Positions 4,070 through 36,236 of a stretch of DNA of 64,000 nucleotides are shown piece by piece. The DNA is from Promethearchaeia archaeon (GTDB lineage: Archaea > Asgardarchaeota > Lokiarchaeia > Sigyniarchaeales > SOKP01), in NCBI GenBank assembly GCA_029856045.1, contig JAHQWG010000016.1, positions 437,921 to 501,920 on the forward strand, in the 5' to 3' direction. Under the pieces are notes generated by a model. The model was given only the letters and a program-made list of their open reading frames with translations. It did no database searches and had not been told where the DNA came from. Position 1 is the first letter of the stretch; each line of letters opens with the position of its first letter. The translations under genes were made by a program, and so were the position numbers.

Positions 4070-5059
4070 CTACTTCTCAGACCATTCAGTTCCGCATTCT
4101 CCACAACGATATTTATGGCCATAAACCCTTGGGTAATCCATTATTATATTGGTCTTGTCAACACTTTCGTGAATTTTAAATTTATTTTCATTTCCACATT
4201 TTGGACACTTTCTTCTTCCAGTGGGTTTCTCTATTCTTAAAATCCCAGTTTCAACATCCATTGCAGTTGGGGTTGGGGGTTCTTTTATGGGTTCTATTAC
4301 CATTTCAGGCTCCTTTACTGGTTCAGGCTCAAGTTCCTTTATCGGTTCAGGCTCAGGTTCCTTCATCGGCTCAGATATCTCTTCTTTCTCTAATGCAGAT
4401 TCTGCTGAAAATTGGACATGTTCATCGACAGAGGTTTCAACTTTTGCTTCGAAAATTTTCATAAATTCTAAATCGTCACCTTCTTCAAAAATAACTTCAT
4501 TTTGTGATCCTGCTCTTTCAGCATCAAAATTTCTTGCCCATTGTCCGGCTTTTACTTTTTCTCTGACATTAGAACTCGCACCTTGCCAAATGTACATTTT
4601 ATCGCCTAAATCTGCAATAAAACAATCTTCAGAATTTAAACTCTCTTTTTTAAACGGTACTTGTATAAATTTCATGGTATTTATATCTTCAAACTCTTCA
4701 GAAGAGACTCTATAGAGTGTATTTACATGTTCTCCCGCACCTGACCAATCACCAGTATCTACATCTTTGAGCATAGTTTTTGCTAAATTTTTATCTACTA
4801 TTTTCATTCCTCCAACAAGTTGTAAAAACTCTTTTATCTCTTGACCTTGATCAAGAGTTATAATTTTTGCAGCACCACTTCTTTGCTCATCCAATTCTCT
4901 AGCTTTCATTGCTGCAAATGTTTTTTCATCTACCGAGCAATATTTACCAAGCCATATATAAATGGTTTTTTCATCATCAACAATATAAGTGTCGCCAGAA
5001 CTGAATACTGGCTTATTCTGCTCTTTTAATTCACCCTTAGCAACCATACAAATTTTCAT
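4070..5059 (-). CDS. Two-domain gelsolin-like actin regulator with C-terminal zinc ribbon
   Basis: 329 residues. Two gelsolin-type repeats are visible: about 22-85 (GDTYIVDDEKTIYIWLGKYCSVDEK then AAMKARELD) and about 143-205 (DCFIADLGDKMYIWQG then AGQWARNFDAERAG). Both carry the gelsolin core YIWxG with the following helix. A Glu/Pro-rich linker of EP(M/I/V)KE(P/L) repeats (about 228-268) leads to a zinc ribbon (about 282-329) with Cys at 285, 288, 319 and 322. Gelsolin domains in Asgard archaea bind and sever or cap actin filaments, often under calcium control. The added ribbon may couple the protein to nucleic acid, protein or metal. The protein is cytosolic, with no signal peptide. The gene is transcribed alone or with the small ribbon gene downstream. 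Confidence 0.87.
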   Translation of the reverse strand: MKICMVAKGELKEQNKPVFSSGDTYIVDDEKTIYIWLGKYCSVDEKTFAAMKARELDEQRSGAAKIITLDQGQEIKEFLQLVGGMKIVDKNLAKTMLKDVDTGDWSGAGEHVNTLYRVSSEEFEDINTMKFIQVPFKKESLNSEDCFIADLGDKMYIWQGASSNVREKVKAGQWARNFDAERAGSQNEVIFEEGDDLEFMKIFEAKVETSVDEHVQFSAESALEKEEISEPMKEPEPEPIKELEPEPVKEPEMVIEPIKEPPTPTAMDVETGILRIEKPTGRRKCPKCGNENKFKIHESVDKTNIIMDYPRVYGHKYRCGECGTEWSEK

Positions 5060-5182
5060 ATAAAAAATACCTCATAAATTTTAACTTATATTTTTCTTAT
5101 GTTTCTTTCAATATATAAATTTATATCAAAAAAATGCGTTTAAAATTAAAAAGATAATTGTGTTATAGTAAATCTCAAGGAC

Positions 5183-6556
5183 TTATTGATATTCACTAAT
5201 AGCTTTTTTGATTCTTAAGACAAATTCTGGAATCTTTCTAATATCTATTGAGCTATATGCGATTCTGAAGCCGTTAATTCCTTCATTAGTTTTTTCTATG
5301 GGAATTACTCCAATTTTGTATTTTTTTAGCAACAATTCAGCAAAATCAGTCGCGTTGATGGACTTTAAATTGACAAATAGAAAGAAACCACCGCGATTAG
5401 GATCAATCGAAAATTGGTCACTTTTAATTGTATTCAATTCTTGGTTAAGTAAAATATACCTTTTTTCCAACATTTTTTCTATTTTTTTACGATGCTGTAG
5501 GGTCTTTTCAATTTCTTGACTTGAGAGTAAAGAGTTAAGAATAGTTTGGTATAAAATATTTGAATTTGAGATTGTGCTTCTTATAAAACCTGAAAATTTA
5601 TTTTCTATTTCAACTTTTAACTGTTCTAATTCAAGATCAGTTTTGATCCAATTTTTATGTATTCCTATAGTTAGTGCCCCTATTCTCCCTCCATACATTA
5701 ATAATTCTTTAGTTATTCCATCTAACTTGATTGGAATGATATTTTCATCCAATTGAAATAGATCATAAAATAATGAGGTTTTTATTGCGTTTATATCAAA
5801 AGTATATCCTTCATAGGCATCATCACAAAAAATAATTAACGGTTTTTTATTTTGGACTACTATTTTTTTAAATAAATTTATTAAATCAATACCCTCCTTT
5901 CTAGTTGGAATATATCCCGTAGGATTGTTTGGAATATTCAGAATTAAAATTATTTTATCTTGTACCCTTAATACATCTTGCATTGCTTTTTCTAAGCTTT
6001 TTAAATCAATACTATCTTCTGAGAAATAGTTAAAAGATTTTATTTTTGCACCAATGTTTTTTTCTATGATATTATCATAATTTCCCCAACGTTTATTTGG
6101 CAAAATGATGTATTCATTCTGATTTAAGAACATGCTACAACATGTAAAAATCCCATGAGTAATCCCAGGTGTAAATAGTGTTAAAGTCAGATATTTTTCG
6201 AGATCTTTTAATGATTTCTTTTTGTTATCATCTAATTGCGATTTTTTAATAACCCAATCTTTCCATCTCTTTCTACTATCAGTTAAGCCAGGAATAGAGG
6301 CATAAGGTACGACATTAGTAATATCAGTATTGAAAAATTGTTTTATATTTTGTAGATAACAAGGAACCCATCGATCTCCTCCAGCCTCAATAAAATCTTT
6401 TTCAAAACCAAATACTGCTCCGATTGTTCCACTTATTTCTGCTTCTTTTTTTGCTCTTTCAGTCCAATAAAAAATACTTCTTGGTAAGAAAATCCTTTTT
6501 CCAACTTCAGAAAATGCCTTATAAATTGGAGTATTTTTAATTGTTTCAAATTCCAT
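5183..6556 (-). CDS. PLP-dependent aminotransferase, class I/II
   Basis: 457 residues. Fold type I landmarks are in order: NNPTGY at about 210-215 (PLP-contacting Asn), DDAYEG at about 245-250 (Asp contacting the pyridine nitrogen), a candidate Schiff-base lysine in GITKELLMYGGRIG at about 283, and the phosphate-binding Arg in the same GGRIG segment. The C-terminal small domain ends with GFRIAYSS. Such enzymes transfer the amino group between an amino acid and a 2-oxo acid. The protein is longer than the usual 390-410 residues, with an extended N-terminus (about 1-55) and an insertion around 335-380. The neighbours are unrelated, so the substrate cannot be inferred. Confidence 0.83.
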   Translation of the reverse strand: MEFETIKNTPIYKAFSEVGKRIFLPRSIFYWTERAKKEAEISGTIGAVFGFEKDFIEAGGDRWVPCYLQNIKQFFNTDITNVVPYASIPGLTDSRKRWKDWVIKKSQLDDNKKKSLKDLEKYLTLTLFTPGITHGIFTCCSMFLNQNEYIILPNKRWGNYDNIIEKNIGAKIKSFNYFSEDSIDLKSLEKAMQDVLRVQDKIILILNIPNNPTGYIPTRKEGIDLINLFKKIVVQNKKPLIIFCDDAYEGYTFDINAIKTSLFYDLFQLDENIIPIKLDGITKELLMYGGRIGALTIGIHKNWIKTDLELEQLKVEIENKFSGFIRSTISNSNILYQTILNSLLSSQEIEKTLQHRKKIEKMLEKRYILLNQELNTIKSDQFSIDPNRGGFFLFVNLKSINATDFAELLLKKYKIGVIPIEKTNEGINGFRIAYSSIDIRKIPEFVLRIKKAISEYQ

Positions 6557-26992: not shown

Positions 26993-28132
26993 TTATAATT
27001 TAATTTTTGATAATTTTTTAAACAAATCTTTCTCATTACTTAAAATATACAAAGCTGTATTGCCTAGTTCATTGAAATCTACATGATTTAGGCATTCACT
27101 TTCATATTTGTCCGCCGCATTTTTTAATGTTTCTGCAATAAGCGTCCAATTTTGAGCAGAATTATTAATTAATGGCAAGGATTCCTCGAGTATCCTAAAT
27201 TCTTCTTTATTCCACGCTTTAGGTCCTTCTTTAAGCTCTGGATGATCTATTAGTTCTTCCAAGAATTCCTTGTATAACTTACGAAAAGCACTCCCCCCTG
27301 TACCCCATGTTTCGATGTAACCATGAGTTAATTCAAACATTAATCTCGCTAGGGAAATAATTTTACCATTATATGGATTTTTAATACTGCCTTTCAAAGT
27401 TTCGCCCCACTTGGGAATAGAATTGGCAAATAAGTTTAAACCTTGAATACCGATATTATTTATGGAAGGTCTTAACATATTATTAACAACTTCTTGTATT
27501 GCAAGTTTAACTCCTGCTGCCAGTGGTGGATGTTTTCCATCTGGGCGCCTTTCCATAGAAAATTGCGTATTTTCTGGAAACATGAATGAATCCCCCTCTC
27601 TAGAACTTCTTCCCTCCTTTAAAATTTCAATTGGAACTTCTTGAAATCCTTCAAATTCGGTATCACCTACATATGCAACTCCTTTTTCTTCGTCATATCC
27701 GCCTAATGTTATCGCATGTCCACCAAAATGTATTTCTTGTTCGTGCTCATAGAAAGGTAAGTAGCCAATATCAACCTTGAGAATTAATGGTATATTCTTG
27801 CTTAATAGAATTTTCGATTCTTGCCACGCTTTATCTGCACTTGAGAATGATTGCTTCCTCAACTTAATTCCTAAAACTCTACATGCTAAAGAATTTGGCT
27901 CAATTTTTCCTTGTTTTCCTCCCACAAAGAAAGGGATCTCATTAACTACGCCATCTAAAGTTGATAACTTGTTTGTTTTATCATAAAAACCAAATCCCAT
28001 TGTTGCATCGAGCCCGAAAGCCATTGCTTCTGACATCGGAAATCCGTAAAATTCAAATAAATCTCTCATTGCGGACGATTCGCAGTGAAATCCAACTTTA
28101 TGACTGAAGTTCTCAACCATTAGTCTGACCAT
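26993..28132 (-). CDS. BtrH N-terminal domain protein (peptidase/acyltransferase-like), copy B
   Basis: 379 residues from the ATG at 28132. This start aligns with the paralog's length and has a GAGGAGG ribosome site about 10 bases upstream. The BtrH_N domain covers about 1-150: GFHCESSAMRDLFEFYGFPMSEAMAFGLDATMGFGF holds the candidate nucleophile Cys, and FGGHAITLGGYD holds the candidate His. The rest is helical (DUF4872-like). BtrH is the acyltransferase of butirosin biosynthesis, and relatives have a papain/C39-like fold. It overlaps the PadR gene by 13 bases. It is paralogous to the BtrH protein two genes upstream, which suggests they handle related substrates. Confidence 0.8.
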   Translation of the reverse strand: MVRLMVENFSHKVGFHCESSAMRDLFEFYGFPMSEAMAFGLDATMGFGFYDKTNKLSTLDGVVNEIPFFVGGKQGKIEPNSLACRVLGIKLRKQSFSSADKAWQESKILLSKNIPLILKVDIGYLPFYEHEQEIHFGGHAITLGGYDEEKGVAYVGDTEFEGFQEVPIEILKEGRSSREGDSFMFPENTQFSMERRPDGKHPPLAAGVKLAIQEVVNNMLRPSINNIGIQGLNLFANSIPKWGETLKGSIKNPYNGKIISLARLMFELTHGYIETWGTGGSAFRKLYKEFLEELIDHPELKEGPKAWNKEEFRILEESLPLINNSAQNWTLIAETLKNAADKYESECLNHVDFNELGNTALYILSNEKDLFKKLSKIKL

Positions 28133-28716
28133 GGTGTCTTTTCCTCCTCGATTTTTTCTAACATCCAATTTATAAATTCAATATGAGTTTCCATCATTTT
28201 TATAGGGCGAACGAAAAGAGCTTTAATATTCAATGGATACATGCCCCATTGTGTCATTGATTGTTGTCTTGATATCTTTTCTTTTTTATTCAGCATTTCA
28301 ATATCATTTTTTATAATTTCAACTGAATTTTTAAAAGCTCTTATCAATTCCTCTTTAGATAATAATGGATACATTGAAAGTGCTATATCATAATCATGAT
28401 CTCTTCGACCCTTAAATTCACTTATAACTTTGTAAACCTTATTTTTTAAGATGACAAACCCAAAATCTGTTATTCTATAGATTTTTCGAATTCTATTATC
28501 AACTTCTTCAATATACGATTCAACCAATTTATCCTCCTCCAACTTATTAATAATTTTATATATTGATGAGGTTCCAATTTCGGTCCAATCTCTCATTCCT
28601 CTCTCATCTATTCTTTGATTAATACTATAAGCATGGCTTGGTGTCTCGGAAACTAAACCCAATATTACAAACGCTCGATGATTTAATTCGTATTCGTTTC
28701 TAAAATCTCTTTCCAT
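28120..28716 (-). CDS. PadR-family transcriptional regulator
   Basis: 198 residues from the ATG at 28716, five bases before which the upstream gene ends; a TTG five codons earlier is less likely. A winged-helix domain occupies about 10-95 (LNHRAFVILGLVSETPSHAYSINQRIDERGMRDWTEIGTSSIYKIINKLEEDKLVESY), with the wing VDNRIRKIYRITDFG. A C-terminal helical part (about 100-198) resembles the PadR dimerisation/ligand-binding tail. PadR proteins repress target operons and release DNA on binding phenolics, drugs or other signals. Lying between two BtrH genes, it probably controls this operon. Confidence 0.85.
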   Translation of the reverse strand: MERDFRNEYELNHRAFVILGLVSETPSHAYSINQRIDERGMRDWTEIGTSSIYKIINKLEEDKLVESYIEEVDNRIRKIYRITDFGFVILKNKVYKVISEFKGRRDHDYDIALSMYPLLSKEELIRAFKNSVEIIKNDIEMLNKKEKISRQQSMTQWGMYPLNIKALFVRPIKMMETHIEFINWMLEKIEEEKTPWSD

Positions 28717-28720
28717 TTTA

Positions 28721-29875
28721 TTACCCCACAATATTATTCAGTGTTGAAAACGCAATTTTATCTTTTTCATACACTTGCATTATCTTATCTTTGATATCTC
28801 TTAATAGTAATTCAATATCCTCTTCCTCTGAATTATCTAACTTTTCTGCAGCTTCTATCATAACTTTTTCTGATTTTTTAGTAATTTCCCTCATTTTTTT
28901 CAATGCCCCTGGCTTTTGTTCTTCAAAAATTTTATTTTTTTCAACCGCCAATTCTCGTGACTTTTTAAGCAAAGGCCATGAATCGGGAAGAGCTGCAATA
29001 GCGAGTTCACTCCAATATTTTCCAGCTTCTTCAAATAATTTAACAGCATCCATTAATTTTGGTTCATCTAATATTAAACTCGATTCTTTTAAAAATTGCG
29101 CATATGTATTGCGATATCCCCCACCTCCTGAACCACTTTCTTCAATAAAGATATAAGTATTGAGAAGACACCCAAATAAATTTAATCCTTTAAATTGTTT
29201 CGGCCAAGATAAAACAAGACCTGCCCACTTCTTAATACCCAGTTGACCAATATTTTTTATTGGAGGATATAAATAATTATCTATACATTCCTTAATTGCA
29301 TCTGTTATTCCACTTTTTAAATTTTTGAGTTTTATAGGATATTTTATTTTTAGGATTTTATGTTTAGGAGCGTAAGGTGGATACTTCGAACTTCGCGCCT
29401 TTTTTAAATCTTCAATAGAAATTATTAATGGTGTTTTTGCAGCATCAGAAACATAAACTTTATCTTCTTTCTCATCAAGACCATAAACAACAATTGAATG
29501 AGCAACTCCTGGAAGAGCAAGATAAGGAAGATATGCCATGTCCGCGAATACAAATACGGGTTCTCCCTCGCGCAAAACATTTATCAATTCTTCATAACCT
29601 CTTTTGATACTAGTAGTCTCAAAAATTGTTGCGTCGCCGCCAATCCGCTGGCAAGTTTTTATTAAAGAATTAGTCTTCCCATACCTAGTACCAATAAACG
29701 GTGCGAGCATCATTTTCATATACCAATACATAAAACCAACTCCAGCACCTAGACCAAAAATCATTTCTTCGGAAAATTCTAAGTTATGATACGCAAATAG
29801 ATTCCTTAGAGACGTGGTCCAACAATGAATACCGCCAATATGCCTATAATTTTCAATAATTAACTTTTCATTCAT
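28721..29875 (-). CDS. BtrH N-terminal domain protein (peptidase/acyltransferase-like), copy A
   Basis: 384 residues. The N-terminal region (about 10-150) shows GGIHCWTTSLRNLFAYHNLEFSEEMIFGLGAGVGF with the candidate nucleophile Cys18, and VAHSIVVYGLDEKEDKVYVSDA with the candidate His/Asp part of a cysteine-protease-like triad. The C-terminal half is helical (ALPDSWPLLKKSRELAVEKN onwards). The gene heads the operon BtrH-PadR-BtrH-DUF3795. Similarity to copy B is visible over the whole length, including PPIKNIGQLGIK against RPSINNIGIQGLN. The substrate cannot be named. Confidence 0.8.
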   Translation of the reverse strand: MNEKLIIENYRHIGGIHCWTTSLRNLFAYHNLEFSEEMIFGLGAGVGFMYWYMKMMLAPFIGTRYGKTNSLIKTCQRIGGDATIFETTSIKRGYEELINVLREGEPVFVFADMAYLPYLALPGVAHSIVVYGLDEKEDKVYVSDAAKTPLIISIEDLKKARSSKYPPYAPKHKILKIKYPIKLKNLKSGITDAIKECIDNYLYPPIKNIGQLGIKKWAGLVLSWPKQFKGLNLFGCLLNTYIFIEESGSGGGGYRNTYAQFLKESSLILDEPKLMDAVKLFEEAGKYWSELAIAALPDSWPLLKKSRELAVEKNKIFEEQKPGALKKMREITKKSEKVMIEAAEKLDNSEEEDIELLLRDIKDKIMQVYEKDKIAFSTLNNIVG

Positions 29876-31783: not shown

Positions 31784-33055
31784 ATGAATTTCGAAATCGT
31801 TATCATTGGAGCGGGTATCACTGGGACTTCATTTGCTTATAAGATTGCAAAATTTGCAAAAACACTACTTCTTGATGCTCAAGATATAACTCAGCGCCCA
31901 AAATCGACAAATATATTTCCATTTCATAATAAATCTTATATTGAAGAATCTGAGTGGTCAAATGAAGAGTTATTCCCAAAATATCATCTCAAAACTAATT
32001 ATATGGGAAGTACATTCAATGGAATTATTAATTCTGAAGAATTTGGTCGCCCTTTGGGTAAAGTAGTTTATTTAGAAAAATTACTAGATAGATTAATTCA
32101 AAAATTCGAAGAAAAAGGTGGTATCTTTAAAGATAAACAAAAAGTAATAAAAATAAATAAGTATAATGACCATTTAGAAATAATTACTAATAGTGGTCAA
32201 ACTTATTCATGTAAATTATTAGTTTTTGCAACAGGGTCTCGAGCTTTAGATTTACAACGATCAGTGGGATTTGAAACACCAGATGAGTTTGTAGGTATTT
32301 ATACACACTTCTATGGAGATGAAGATAAATTAAATGAAAATTTGGATGTAAATTATCTCTTTCATATTAATATGAAAATAAGTCGTAATGGCCCACTATT
32401 TATAAATAAGGGAATAGAGAGACTATCTATAGGTTTCTTAGGAGATAATCAGCCAATTCAAGAACTCGGTTTAAAATTAAATAATATTATTAATAATTAT
32501 AAAAAAATTCAACCATTTATTAAAGGATTAACACGGGATTCTAAAGCAATTGTAGCAAAAATCTCAAAACACCCAATTAAATCATTTTCTCGTGATAGAA
32601 TGCTAGTTTTGGGTGAAGCTGCAGGTTTAGTTACCCCATTTTTCTGGGAGGGAATTTTATGTGGGTTGGTATCAGCAGAGGTTGCATCATATATAATTAA
32701 ATCGTTAATGGAAAATAATAGTGATTTTAACCAACTATCTCTTAAACAGTATGATAACGAAATCACTCGTGTTTTTACAAATTTTTTTAAAAATGGAAAA
32801 GGTTCAGAATATATCTTCTATAATGCTGGTTCTAATATGCAATTAATTTGGGATTCTTATACAAAATCGATTTTTAAAGATAAAAAACTAAGAAGATATA
32901 TTTATGAAGCATATCAAATCGAGGACATTGAAGCTCTCACTAATTATGATACAAGTAGAGATCGATATGCTGGGGAGAGAATGTTAGCTAATTTGCCCTT
33001 CTTATCCAAAATAAGTTTAGCCCCCTTTTTTTTAAAGGCTATGTTAAAATTATAA
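31784..33055 (+). CDS. FAD-dependent oxidoreductase, geranylgeranyl reductase-like
   Basis: 423 residues. The N-terminal dinucleotide-binding motif is VIIGAGITGTSFAYKIAK (G-x-G-x2-G) followed by LLLDAQ with the acidic residue that binds ribose. The second FAD motif is RMLVLGEAAGLVTPFFWEGILCGLVSAEVAS (G-E/D-A-A-G-x2-x-P), which is typical of archaeal digeranylgeranylglycerophospholipid reductases and related FAD hydroxylases. These saturate the isoprenoid chains of membrane lipids. The middle is less typical, so another flavin-dependent reductase is possible. The gene stands alone. Confidence 0.78.
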   Translation: MNFEIVIIGAGITGTSFAYKIAKFAKTLLLDAQDITQRPKSTNIFPFHNKSYIEESEWSNEELFPKYHLKTNYMGSTFNGIINSEEFGRPLGKVVYLEKLLDRLIQKFEEKGGIFKDKQKVIKINKYNDHLEIITNSGQTYSCKLLVFATGSRALDLQRSVGFETPDEFVGIYTHFYGDEDKLNENLDVNYLFHINMKISRNGPLFINKGIERLSIGFLGDNQPIQELGLKLNNIINNYKKIQPFIKGLTRDSKAIVAKISKHPIKSFSRDRMLVLGEAAGLVTPFFWEGILCGLVSAEVASYIIKSLMENNSDFNQLSLKQYDNEITRVFTNFFKNGKGSEYIFYNAGSNMQLIWDSYTKSIFKDKKLRRYIYEAYQIEDIEALTNYDTSRDRYAGERMLANLPFLSKISLAPFFLKAMLKL

Positions 33056-33077
33056 AAAAGATTTAGTAAAGATTATT

Positions 33078-35069
33078 TTATTCTCCTTCTTGATCTTCAA
33101 ATAAACCTAAATTGGGGTCTAGGAATTGATTACTACACATAGGACAAGAATTAAATTTTGAAAGCCAATAAGCAACGCATAGATAATGAAACACACTGCC
33201 GCAGAATGGACACACAATAATATTTTCTTTCGCAATATTAATATATTTATGGCATACAGTGCAGTGGACATCAGAGACTGAAATTCCTTCCCGTAATTTA
33301 ATACGAGAGGATAGAATTTCTTCCAATTTTGACATTTCTTCTTGATAAAGTCTTTTTTCTCGATTTGATTTTTTTATTTGGGAATCAATTGATTGAATTC
33401 TTTCCTTTAATTCATCATCAGATAATTTTTCTGGAAAAAGTGTTGTAAAACGATAATTCAGTGGAATCTCATGTTCATGTAATCCAATATTTTTTATCGT
33501 ACTAAAAAGTATTTCTTCTTCTCCAAGTATTTCTTTAAATGAAATAAAAAGTTTAGAAATTAATAAGTATAGTGCAAATTTCATTTGATTTGTTTTTTCA
33601 GTAAAATTTTTTTCCCATTTTTTTATAAGACTGTATGGACTAACTCCTCTCTTTCTAATATCTTCAAATATTTTTGTAATCTCTTTTTGGATTTTAGTAG
33701 TTTCTACCGTATATTTTCTCAGCATATTTTTTATATTTTCTAATTCAGGAAACTCCTGATTTATAGTCTTAGAGGTTTCTTGTTGATAAAAATCCAGCAT
33801 ATGATTTAATTTTGCCATATTATTATCAATAAGAGTTTTTACTTCAGCTTTTACATTCTCTTCATATATAGATTGAGCAGAATTCTCAAAGATTTCCACC
33901 CTGCGCTGAATTTCTGAATTTATATTATTTATCGTTTTTCTTATATTTAATGTGACCTCATCATAAGGTTTCAAATAATTTTCAAATTCTAAAATCCAAT
34001 CTACAATATCATCTAATAGCTTTACTATCTGGCGTTTTTTTAAGTTCAACTGGGCTGTACAATCTTGTTCTTCAATCTTCTCTTGATAATAAGTTTCAAT
34101 TTTTTCAAAAATCTTAAATATTGTTTTAGAAATGAAATTATTAATATCACCTTGCTTTAACTCTTCTAAAATTTTATTTAATTCTCTCTTAGTAATAATT
34201 TTTATCTCATCATAAATTTCATTCCTTTGTAAAAGCAAATCAGTTATGAAATCCTTTAATAACTCAATAAAAAATGAACGTAATTTCTTTTTAATCTCTG
34301 CTTTCTCTGTAGAATCTTTAAATTTTTCAATTTTACTAATATAAAAGATTCCTATTGAATAACATAGATATAAATAATCATAAATAAGCACGGATTTGAA
34401 GTTACTAGATTCTTTAAAATCAGAAATTATATCATGTATATAAAAAACACTATTATTTTCACGACCTTCATTAATAAAAGGGATTTCGCCGTGCTTTTTT
34501 GTGATTTCATATAATTCTTTTATTGGCTCCCAAATTTCAAGATCAAGTGGAAGTTTTTTGGAAATAAAAGCAATTTTCTTAAGTATCGAACTTTCAATAA
34601 ATATATAAATTTCATTTTTAAATTTGGATTGGAACTTTTGCTTATTAGCTTGAATAAAATCAATAAGATTTTCGCATTGATCTCTTGAATATTTAATTTT
34701 TTTAAATATTTTCTCAAATAGTTTCTTATTTTTAATTATCCCTCTTACATTTCTCATGTCTAAGAAGATAATTCTAATCCTCCGCTTAATTCGTATTAAT
34801 TCCCCTAAAATTTCTGATAGAAAATAAAATAGTTTATTTAAATTCCCAATATCGAAATAATTGCTAAAGAAATCTTCTAAATTTATTAAGTATTCAGAAA
34901 TACTATTAAAATCTTCTAAATTAAATTTTGAGGAAATAAAGTTTGTAAATTCTAATTTAGTTGATCTTTTTTTCTCAAAATCAATTATTTGTTTTTTTAT
35001 TTCTTCAATTTTTTGTTTTGTAAACCCTTTTACATCATTAAAAATAAATTTGTTACTATTAAATAACAT
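33078..35069 (-). CDS. Large coiled-coil protein with C-terminal RING-type zinc finger
   Basis: 663 residues. Residues about 1-590 are helical and charged, with coiled-coil segments; no enzyme domain is seen. At the C-terminus Cys603 and 606, Cys620 and 623, His628, Cys631, Cys642 and 645 give C-x2-C-x13-C-x2-C-x4-H-x2-C-x10-C-x2-C. The order C4-H-C3 and the text CGSVFHYLCVAYWLSKFNSCPMC resemble eukaryotic RING fingers (CGHVFHxxCIxxWLxxxxxCPxC), except that the usual fourth ligand (His in CGH) is Ser, apparently replaced by the extra upstream Cys. RING domains bind E2 enzymes and act as ubiquitin ligases. The gene follows the proteasome beta subunit gene at 38 bases on the same strand. Confidence 0.8.
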   Translation of the reverse strand: MLFNSNKFIFNDVKGFTKQKIEEIKKQIIDFEKKRSTKLEFTNFISSKFNLEDFNSISEYLINLEDFFSNYFDIGNLNKLFYFLSEILGELIRIKRRIRIIFLDMRNVRGIIKNKKLFEKIFKKIKYSRDQCENLIDFIQANKQKFQSKFKNEIYIFIESSILKKIAFISKKLPLDLEIWEPIKELYEITKKHGEIPFINEGRENNSVFYIHDIISDFKESSNFKSVLIYDYLYLCYSIGIFYISKIEKFKDSTEKAEIKKKLRSFFIELLKDFITDLLLQRNEIYDEIKIITKRELNKILEELKQGDINNFISKTIFKIFEKIETYYQEKIEEQDCTAQLNLKKRQIVKLLDDIVDWILEFENYLKPYDEVTLNIRKTINNINSEIQRRVEIFENSAQSIYEENVKAEVKTLIDNNMAKLNHMLDFYQQETSKTINQEFPELENIKNMLRKYTVETTKIQKEITKIFEDIRKRGVSPYSLIKKWEKNFTEKTNQMKFALYLLISKLFISFKEILGEEEILFSTIKNIGLHEHEIPLNYRFTTLFPEKLSDDELKERIQSIDSQIKKSNREKRLYQEEMSKLEEILSSRIKLREGISVSDVHCTVCHKYINIAKENIIVCPFCGSVFHYLCVAYWLSKFNSCPMCSNQFLDPNLGLFEDQEGE

Positions 35070-35107
35070 TAAATAGTCTTTTTTATTCTAAAATAAGTTA
35101 ATAATAT

Positions 35108-35725
35108 CTATTCGCCTAATTCATTTAACTCGAAATATTTTTCCTTATATCCTGCATCAGTTATTGTTAAAATATCAATACCATTACCTGACATTGCATC
35201 TCTTGCTATCGCAGAACGTATTATTTTTTCTATTAATTTTTCACCTTTTACAATTGTAATTTCTGAGTTATATTCTGATTCAAGCATTCCGACCATCATC
35301 AGCATACTCGTACCCCCTACTCCGTAGTCATCAGGCATCAAAGATCCGATTGCATCTAATGTATAAAGCTTTGGTCCATCAAGATCTACTCCAGCTATAA
35401 CAACATTTGTAAATAATGGAAACATTTTCCGATAATACAGATAATTACTTAACATTTTACCCATACTTTTTGTAGAAATTCTTGAACCAGCTTCGTATTG
35501 ATATAAATTTGCTCTAGCTTTCATAATTTTCACCAAAATCTGAAAATCTCCAATTAACCCATATGCTGAAAGGCCAATATGATCGGTTAATGGAAATACC
35601 TTTTTGGTTGATTTATTAGTAACAGTATAACCTAAAGTAGCCCGTCGATCATTACCTAAAACCACCCCATCTTTGCATTTTATTGCGACCGAAGCCGCTC
35701 CTGGAACCATGAATTCCATGCTCAT
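35108..35725 (-). CDS. psmB: Proteasome beta-type subunit without the catalytic threonine
   Basis: 205 residues, the proper size for an archaeal beta subunit and without the N-terminal helix of alpha subunits. The mature-start region reads MVPGAASVAIKCKDGVVLGNDRRATLG, whereas active subunits read G-TTT-VGI: the first residue after the Gly is Ala, and no Thr is present in the next two positions. The other active-site features are kept: Asp and Arg of NDRRAT, the Lys in STKKVF and the ARDAMSG block with Asp. It would assemble into a 20S core as a structural, non-cleaving subunit beside an active one encoded elsewhere. The RING gene follows on the same strand. Confidence 0.85.
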   Translation of the reverse strand: MSMEFMVPGAASVAIKCKDGVVLGNDRRATLGYTVTNKSTKKVFPLTDHIGLSAYGLIGDFQILVKIMKARANLYQYEAGSRISTKSMGKMLSNYLYYRKMFPLFTNVVIAGVDLDGPKLYTLDAIGSLMPDDYGVGGTSMLMMVGMLESEYNSEITIVKGEKLIEKIIRSAIARDAMSGNGIDILTITDAGYKEKYFELNELGE

Positions 35726-36017: not shown

Positions 36018-36236
36018 TTAGAAATATTTGATTGCTAAAAGCAAATCATCCTTTGTTACTTTCTTTCTTCCTGCATGATTACAGAATGTGATAGCTTGTT
36101 TAGTAATAGCGGTAGCTGTATTTTCTAAATTTTCAATCAAGAGATCTACTGCATCTCTCGCAACAATGGTTGCACCTTGCTTTTTCATTAATCTCCTAAC
36201 TGGACTCCAGGCGAAAGAGTGTTTCTTTTTTGCCAT
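36018..36236 (-). CDS. Archaeal histone
   Basis: 72 residues making one histone fold: SPVRRLMKKQGATIVARDAVDLLIENLENTATAITKQAITFCNHAGRKKVTKDDLLLAIKYF. The landmarks are VARDAVDLL at helix 2, the AG-x-KKVTKDDLLLAI block at loop 2 and helix 3, and a basic N-terminus (MAKKKHSFAWSP). Archaeal histones dimerise and wrap about 60 bases of DNA per two dimers. A strong ribosome site (GGAGG, complement at 36246-36250) precedes the ATG. The short N-terminal addition before the fold could bear modification sites, but that is conjecture. Confidence 0.93.
   Translation of the reverse strand: MAKKKHSFAWSPVRRLMKKQGATIVARDAVDLLIENLENTATAITKQAITFCNHAGRKKVTKDDLLLAIKYF

Follow-up and report, generated by a model that had tools for sequence, protein, structure and literature searches.

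A large RING-finger protein encoded directly behind a proteasome beta gene in Lokiarchaea

The stretch of DNA analysed here (the window, 64,000 nucleotides of a Promethearchaeia archaeon) is part of a 3.34-Mb genome in 55 contigs (G000:C27). It encodes a 663-residue protein, here called RINGp, in which a long helical and coiled-coil part is followed by a C-terminal RING finger; this is a new large RING architecture for archaea. Our preferred reading, to which we give a probability of about 0.5, is that RINGp is a large archaeal RING protein which binds an E2 enzyme, as an E3 ligase or as an E3 scaffold, and which is tied to the proteasome. The ligase reading is put at even odds because the evidence on the E2 partner and on a conjugation gene cluster lost in the window's genus is mixed. 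The features referred to below are the following.

33054..33059, minus strand: run of six T 3' of the RINGp stop codon, possible transcript end (sequence)
33078..35069, minus strand: RINGp, 663-aa helical/coiled-coil protein with C-terminal RING finger (open reading frame; family alignment of 36 sequences; AlphaFold model)
33135..33263, minus strand: RING finger, residues 603-645 (Pfam zf-RING_2; counts over 42 RINGs; RING-only model and Foldseek)
33288..34061, minus strand: long helices, residues 337-594, predicted coiled-coil stalk preceding the RING (DSSP on the model)
34080..35018, minus strand: N-terminal helical region, residues 18-330, no known family (model; no family from Pfam, NCBIfam or Foldseek)
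35070..35107, minus strand: 38-bp gap between beta and RINGp, longest T run 4, no terminator match (scan)
35108..35725, minus strand: proteasome beta-type subunit, 205 aa, non-catalytic paralogue (PF00227, E 2.7e-47)
35696..35698, minus strand: codon of Ala10 at the catalytic Thr1 position (alignment with the genome's own beta L127 and the Thermoplasma beta)
36018..36236, minus strand: archaeal histone gene, upstream of the pair (Pfam)

The zinc ligands of RINGp follow the pattern C603-x2-C606-x13-C620-x2-C623-x4-H628-x2-C631-x10-C642-x2-C645. All eight, in cross-brace order, are invariant together with W635 in the 36 full-length relatives, and none of the 42 aligned RINGs lacks a ligand, although two distant ones have His for Cys631. 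The first-pass annotation had described a Ser in place of the usual fourth-position His, that is a lost ligand, which was a misreading. S625 falls outside the ligand positions at the spacing of RINGp, and it is no lost ligand because the eight ligands are invariant in the 36 relatives and Cys623 fills the role, being ligand four as in the archaeal srfp.

That a coiled-coil protein of 663 residues ends in a RING, as had been proposed, is borne out by the kept ligands, by the Pfam match and by the predicted fold. The zf-RING_2 model is matched at E 5.1e-5 by the whole of RINGp, with 29.2 bits against a cut-off of 27.3 by the RING alone, and by all 42 aligned RINGs. An AlphaFold model of the RING alone has a pLDDT of about 90 in the core. 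When this model was searched with Foldseek all 50 top PDB matches were RING or ligase entries with probability 1.00, and it superposes on E2~Ub-bound RNF165/Ark2C with an rmsd of 0.9-1.0 A; for so small a domain the E-values do not fall below 2e-3. A plain zinc ribbon, the fold which according to the first-pass annotation would speak against a ligase-like role, is not supported, since the predicted fold is that of a RING with hydrophobic residues at the positions facing the E2. A ribbon with a single zinc, four ligands and no central helix is ruled out by the eight ligands and the helix at 629-639. A PHD finger was considered as well, and the Pfam PHD model does match the RING weakly; it is ruled out by N640, which stands two before ligand seven where there is no aromatic residue, by the presence of W635 and by the Foldseek matches to RINGs.

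In known RINGs the positions corresponding to V/I605, W635 and P643 are contacts to the E2. These residues are kept, the first two in 42 of 42 RINGs and P643 in 41. A basic linchpin after the last Cys is usual in RING E3s, but not universal. Of 24 family members, 23 have neither Lys nor Arg at 646-648 and one has Lys; the stretch reads S/Q-N-x in the family. Replacement of the linchpin Arg in RNF38 lowered ubiquitination, slightly to completely, and some RING E3s without a basic linchpin still function, more weakly (PMC12326332). In srfp the linchpin mutation R69A impaired the reaction (PMC5654768). By analogy with these effects, the missing linchpin suggests that the ligase activity of RINGp may be weak or dependent on the E2.

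The same residues bear on another explanation, which we regard as rather unlikely: RINGp could be a RING scaffold that is no ligase itself and binds an E2, a ubiquitin-like modifier (Ubl) or another RING, as Bmi1 does in Bmi1/Ring1B. The missing linchpin would fit such a protein, the RING as it appears in the full-length model has its best Foldseek match in chains of Bmi1/Ring1B-UbcH5c complexes, and other RING genes in the same genome could supply partners. The near-invariance of V/I605, W635 and P643, which would be needless without E2 contact, argues against it, as do the RING E3s that work without the linchpin.

The full-length AlphaFold model of RINGp is nearly all helix, with a mean pLDDT of 80.5 and a pTM of 0.61. 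Residues 337-594, the stalk half, are conserved more widely than the rest of the protein. The helical part belongs to no family found in Pfam, NCBIfam, PADLOC or a PDB sequence search, and its Foldseek matches, designed helices and MukF, are not significant. A single-sequence search gave homologues in 51 of 58 relatives, a number in which matches to the RING only are counted. Full-length homologues occur in families f1-f4, and they remain full-length across the window's family (f1) and the order, with ligands and W635 kept, while the identity to the query goes down to 13-14%, which speaks against a chance resemblance. A peptide-pattern search of named GTDB contigs gave no relatives of RINGp. 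A RING 47-55% identical to that of RINGp also stands behind a zinc ribbon in short proteins of about 102-147 aa (L065, L066, L067, L118, L119); these were seen in genera g2, g8 and g9, unlinked to proteasome genes.

The gene in front of RINGp was first described simply as a proteasome beta gene. The beta type is right: besides PF00227, archaeal beta chains in PDB are matched at E 5e-41. The subunit is not a catalytic one, since Ala10 stands at the Thr1 position and the alignment shows no propeptide, the protein having GAASVA where L127 and the Thermoplasma beta have GTTTVG. The NCBIfam archaeal beta model gives 193.5 bits, below its cut-off of 224. Thr1 was found in none of the betas linked to RINGp, nor in the orthologues read from f2-f4; the position is Ala in all but one of these proteins and Ser in L007. 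The window's beta is thus a non-catalytic subunit, conserved in Lokiarchaea. Besides it the genome has two alphas and two more betas, L127 and L140, both of which carry GTTTV. At L140 (G000:C51) the third proteasome beta gene, which has Thr1, lies at 4627-5277 on the minus strand, convergent with a gene at 4147-4626 on the plus strand for a short protein which by eye may be a JAB/MPN (JAMM) protease.

The distance of 38 bp between the two genes and their common strand, reported from the first reading, were confirmed. We infer from the sequence that they may be co-transcribed; this is plausible because T runs in the gap do not exceed 4, the run of six T follows RINGp, and long T runs lie between the histone gene and the beta gene. 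To see how far the pair is kept, we counted the genomes of family f1 which carry beta and RINGp on one contig (n=32, 8 genera). RINGp lies directly downstream of beta and co-directional with it in 31 of the 32, and 30 of these 31 pairs are within about 325 bp of each other (by alignment end), the remaining gap being 1.6 kb; in the one exception, G020, the pair is inverted. The arrangement is kept although RINGp identity falls to about 30%. Conservation of the gene order, which had been named as a check, thus holds within f1 but not in the other families of the order: f2-f4 carry both genes apart, the linkage was found in no family other than f1, and in G042, a single contig, the two genes are 2.7 Mb apart. 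In a tree of RINGp the f1 proteins group together (100/99) and the window's genus branches off first among them, so that a single origin of the linkage at the base of f1 is the simplest account.

A ubiquitin-like conjugation cluster is found directly beyond RINGp in seven genomes of three other genera (G007, G008, G015, G016, G021, G026 and G029). Separated from RINGp by one or two small genes of opposite strand, it consists of genes for a Ubl (PF00240), an E1 (ThiF, 410 aa), an E2 (UQ_con, 175 aa), a JAB/MPN protease (PF01398) and a membrane protein. Many members of the order have this Ubl-E1-E2-JAB set, and it occurs in part of the class; the remaining genera carry it on other contigs. The window's genus lacks it, as judged from G000 and G004, both 100% complete, which have only a second type of E1 and E2 and one ubiquitin; in G000 the E1 (530 aa) and the E2 (170 aa) are at G000:C47, and the ubiquitin, ending QAGGI, is at G000:C34. 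The window's genus has lost the set and has kept RINGp with its E2-facing residues. The second-type E2 of G000 has HPN, the catalytic Cys, a loop 4 with YPF and a loop 7 with PS, and the srfp operon's E2 is like it in both loops. At the place where RING-binding E2s carry YPF, the cluster E2 reads YPR or YPK. For this reason the second-type E2 looks like the more RING-like partner, and the Ubl cluster may be a neighbour of RINGp by pathway and not as its direct partner.

The modifier of the cluster ends in a single Gly (..LLIPASTAG, sometimes with 1-3 residues more) and not in GG (L043 9491-9829; also L042, L044, L046 and L091-L108). The single-Gly tail prompted a comparison with the UFM1 pathway, with the cluster E2 as UFC1 and the E1 as UBA5; this is not favoured because the E2 gives matches to UQ_con and ordinary E2s, and UBA5 is a poorer match for the E1 than UBA1, UBA2 and UBA3 are. 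Several genomes have two copies of the cluster Ubl and a divergent third with a Lys-rich tail. The membrane protein downstream of JAB (L043 12778-13848 and orthologues) has a C-terminal RING-like zinc domain, CxxC..CPxCxxPAHxDEF..W..LCSRC, in which one ligand position is usually Glu; it is a candidate membrane ligase for the cluster. A Cys/His-rich protein of 76-83 aa, convergent to RINGp (L042 4744-4974, L046 4610-4858, L044 8038-8289), occurs in genera where the Ubl cluster is linked; the other loci that were read showed no such protein. In G008 the cluster E2 (L041 875-1428) is split in two by a stop or frameshift, which may be a sequencing error.

The gene neighbourhood could also be explained if RINGp were a proteasome assembly or regulatory factor, its helices binding the alpha or beta rings and its RING being only a structural zinc module. 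This appears unlikely to us. The tight linkage to a non-catalytic beta in 31 of 32 genomes would suit such a factor, and so would the persistence of the linkage in a genus that lost the Ubl-E1-E2 set; against it, f2-f4 keep both genes apart, the E2-facing residues are kept, and no similarity to known assembly chaperones was found by Pfam, PDB sequence search or Foldseek.

Part of the conservation of the pair may reflect slow rearrangement or neutral synteny, as the histone and SIS genes are partly conserved too. Among the 27 genomes outside the window's genus the histone is upstream of and divergent from beta in 17 and SIS in 7, and by distance 18 of them have the histone no more than about 3.3 kb from the pair and 8 have SIS within 5 kb. 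That the two genes are neighbours by slow decay of gene order only, with a common promoter and with an unrelated role for RINGp such as modification of histones or membrane proteins, is nevertheless quite improbable: these neighbours and the separation of the genes in f2-f4 fit it, but RINGp is the most conserved neighbour of beta, on the same side and strand in 26 of 27 genomes versus 17 for the histone, and in three genera ubiquitin-like conjugation genes have taken the place of the other flank.

We return to the preferred reading, an E2-binding RING protein tied to the proteasome. Its RING would recruit a charged E2~Ub through V605, W635 and P643, substrates or partners would be bound by the helical N-terminal part together with the stalk, and the protein would serve the transfer of ubiquitin or a ubiquitin-like modifier. 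Expression together with the non-catalytic beta would tie the amount or output of RINGp to the supply of proteasome subunits, to assembly or to degradation. If RINGp is a ligase, its partner in the window's genus would be the second E1/E2 pair with the ubiquitin ending in GGI, because this is the sole conjugation machinery found there. E2 binding, ubiquitin transfer or ligase activity and contact with the proteasome are what we infer from conserved residues, predicted fold and gene order. The first-pass annotation had proposed a ubiquitin-ligase-like or adaptor system for the 20S core. The predicted RING fold, the E2-facing residues and the Ubl genes adjoining in three genera speak for this; the missing linchpin and the non-catalytic nature of the beta speak against it, and further points against the preferred reading are the loss of the cluster in the window's genus, the YPR/YPK of the cluster E2 and the lack of beta linkage outside f1. 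A bolder version, in which RINGp would be a dedicated ligase docked to the proteasome, seems improbable: the helical part would sit on the 20S core via the non-catalytic beta or its partners, the RING would modify substrates right there, drawing on more than one modifier system, and the protein would be an archaeal forerunner of ligases acting at the 26S proteasome.

Archaeal ubiquitin cascades, RING E3s and proteasomes, including those with inactive betas, are already known. The open-access literature searched gave no description of the beta-RINGp pair, nor of any large RING protein whose gene adjoins that of a proteasome subunit and, in relatives, a full Ubl conjugation set. With a proteasome subunit gene as one neighbour and, in relatives, the Ubl-E1-E2-JAB genes as the other, RINGp is a testable candidate for a link between tagging and the proteasome. 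This candidate is found in Asgard archaea, the archaeal group closest to eukaryotes, and hints at an early link between tagging and destruction.

Two other observations were made in the same genome. L153 (G000:C44:25589-25717) and L154 (G000:C15:116869-116997) combine what looks like a vWA domain with RING-like zinc fingers and in this recall the TFIIH subunit Ssl1/p44. In the window, two BtrH_N + DUF4872 proteins (peptidase C39-like; 26993-28168 and 28721-29875) flank a PadR-like regulator.

The closest known system is srfp of Caldiarchaeum subterraneum, a biochemically tested E3 for which an extra cysteine (C3B) has been described (PMC5654768). Mutation of I30 or W58, the counterparts of V/I605 and W635 in RINGp, abolished or impaired ubiquitylation (PMC5654768). 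The outgroup genome G056 encodes a srfp-type protein beside E1 and E2: IYCPYCGSAAHRDH. It has the spacing C-x2-C-x4-H-x2-C/H in common with RINGp, and the srfp proteins of Caldiarchaeum and of Asgard ubiquitin operons share with RINGp the extra CxxC ligand Cys, the hydrophobic residue between the first two Cys and the helix Trp. The G056 protein is encoded in an operon near E2, E1 and Ub, and RINGp is near such genes in three genera. In contrast to the 663 aa, long helical part and missing linchpin of RINGp, the G056 protein has 81 aa and basic residues shortly behind its last Cys, and linkage to a proteasome beta gene is a further difference. RINGp does not belong to the srfp family, if this is taken as short RING proteins encoded in an E1/E2/Ub operon; in the window's genus its gene does not lie in such an operon.

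The eukaryotic RING-H2 ligases RNF165/Ark2C, EL5, RNF126 and RNF4 resemble RINGp in fold (rmsd about 1-2 A for most) and in the E2-facing residues; they differ from its C4HC3 order with CxxCxxxxHxxC and its missing linchpin, and there is no similarity outside the RING. The C4HC3 ligand order is known from Listerin (Ltn1), Nse1 and PHD-type fingers, and the Foldseek matches of the RING include a ribosome quality control complex entry and a Nse1 entry. However, no HEAT repeats or MAGE partner were seen for RINGp, and it is set apart from PHD-type fingers by the RING-type Trp and CP-x-C and by the lack of the PHD aromatic residue.

For the proteasome side the nearest parallel is Sulfolobus acidocaldarius, which has a structural beta, Saci0662, and a catalytic beta, Saci0909; the complex of alpha with Saci0662 is inactive, and proteins tagged with Urm1 are degraded (PMC4569737). 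Both organisms have two types of beta, one giving an inactive core alone in Sulfolobus acidocaldarius. No RING gene is described there, whereas the inactive beta of Lokiarchaea, which has neither Thr1 nor a propeptide, is paired with RINGp.
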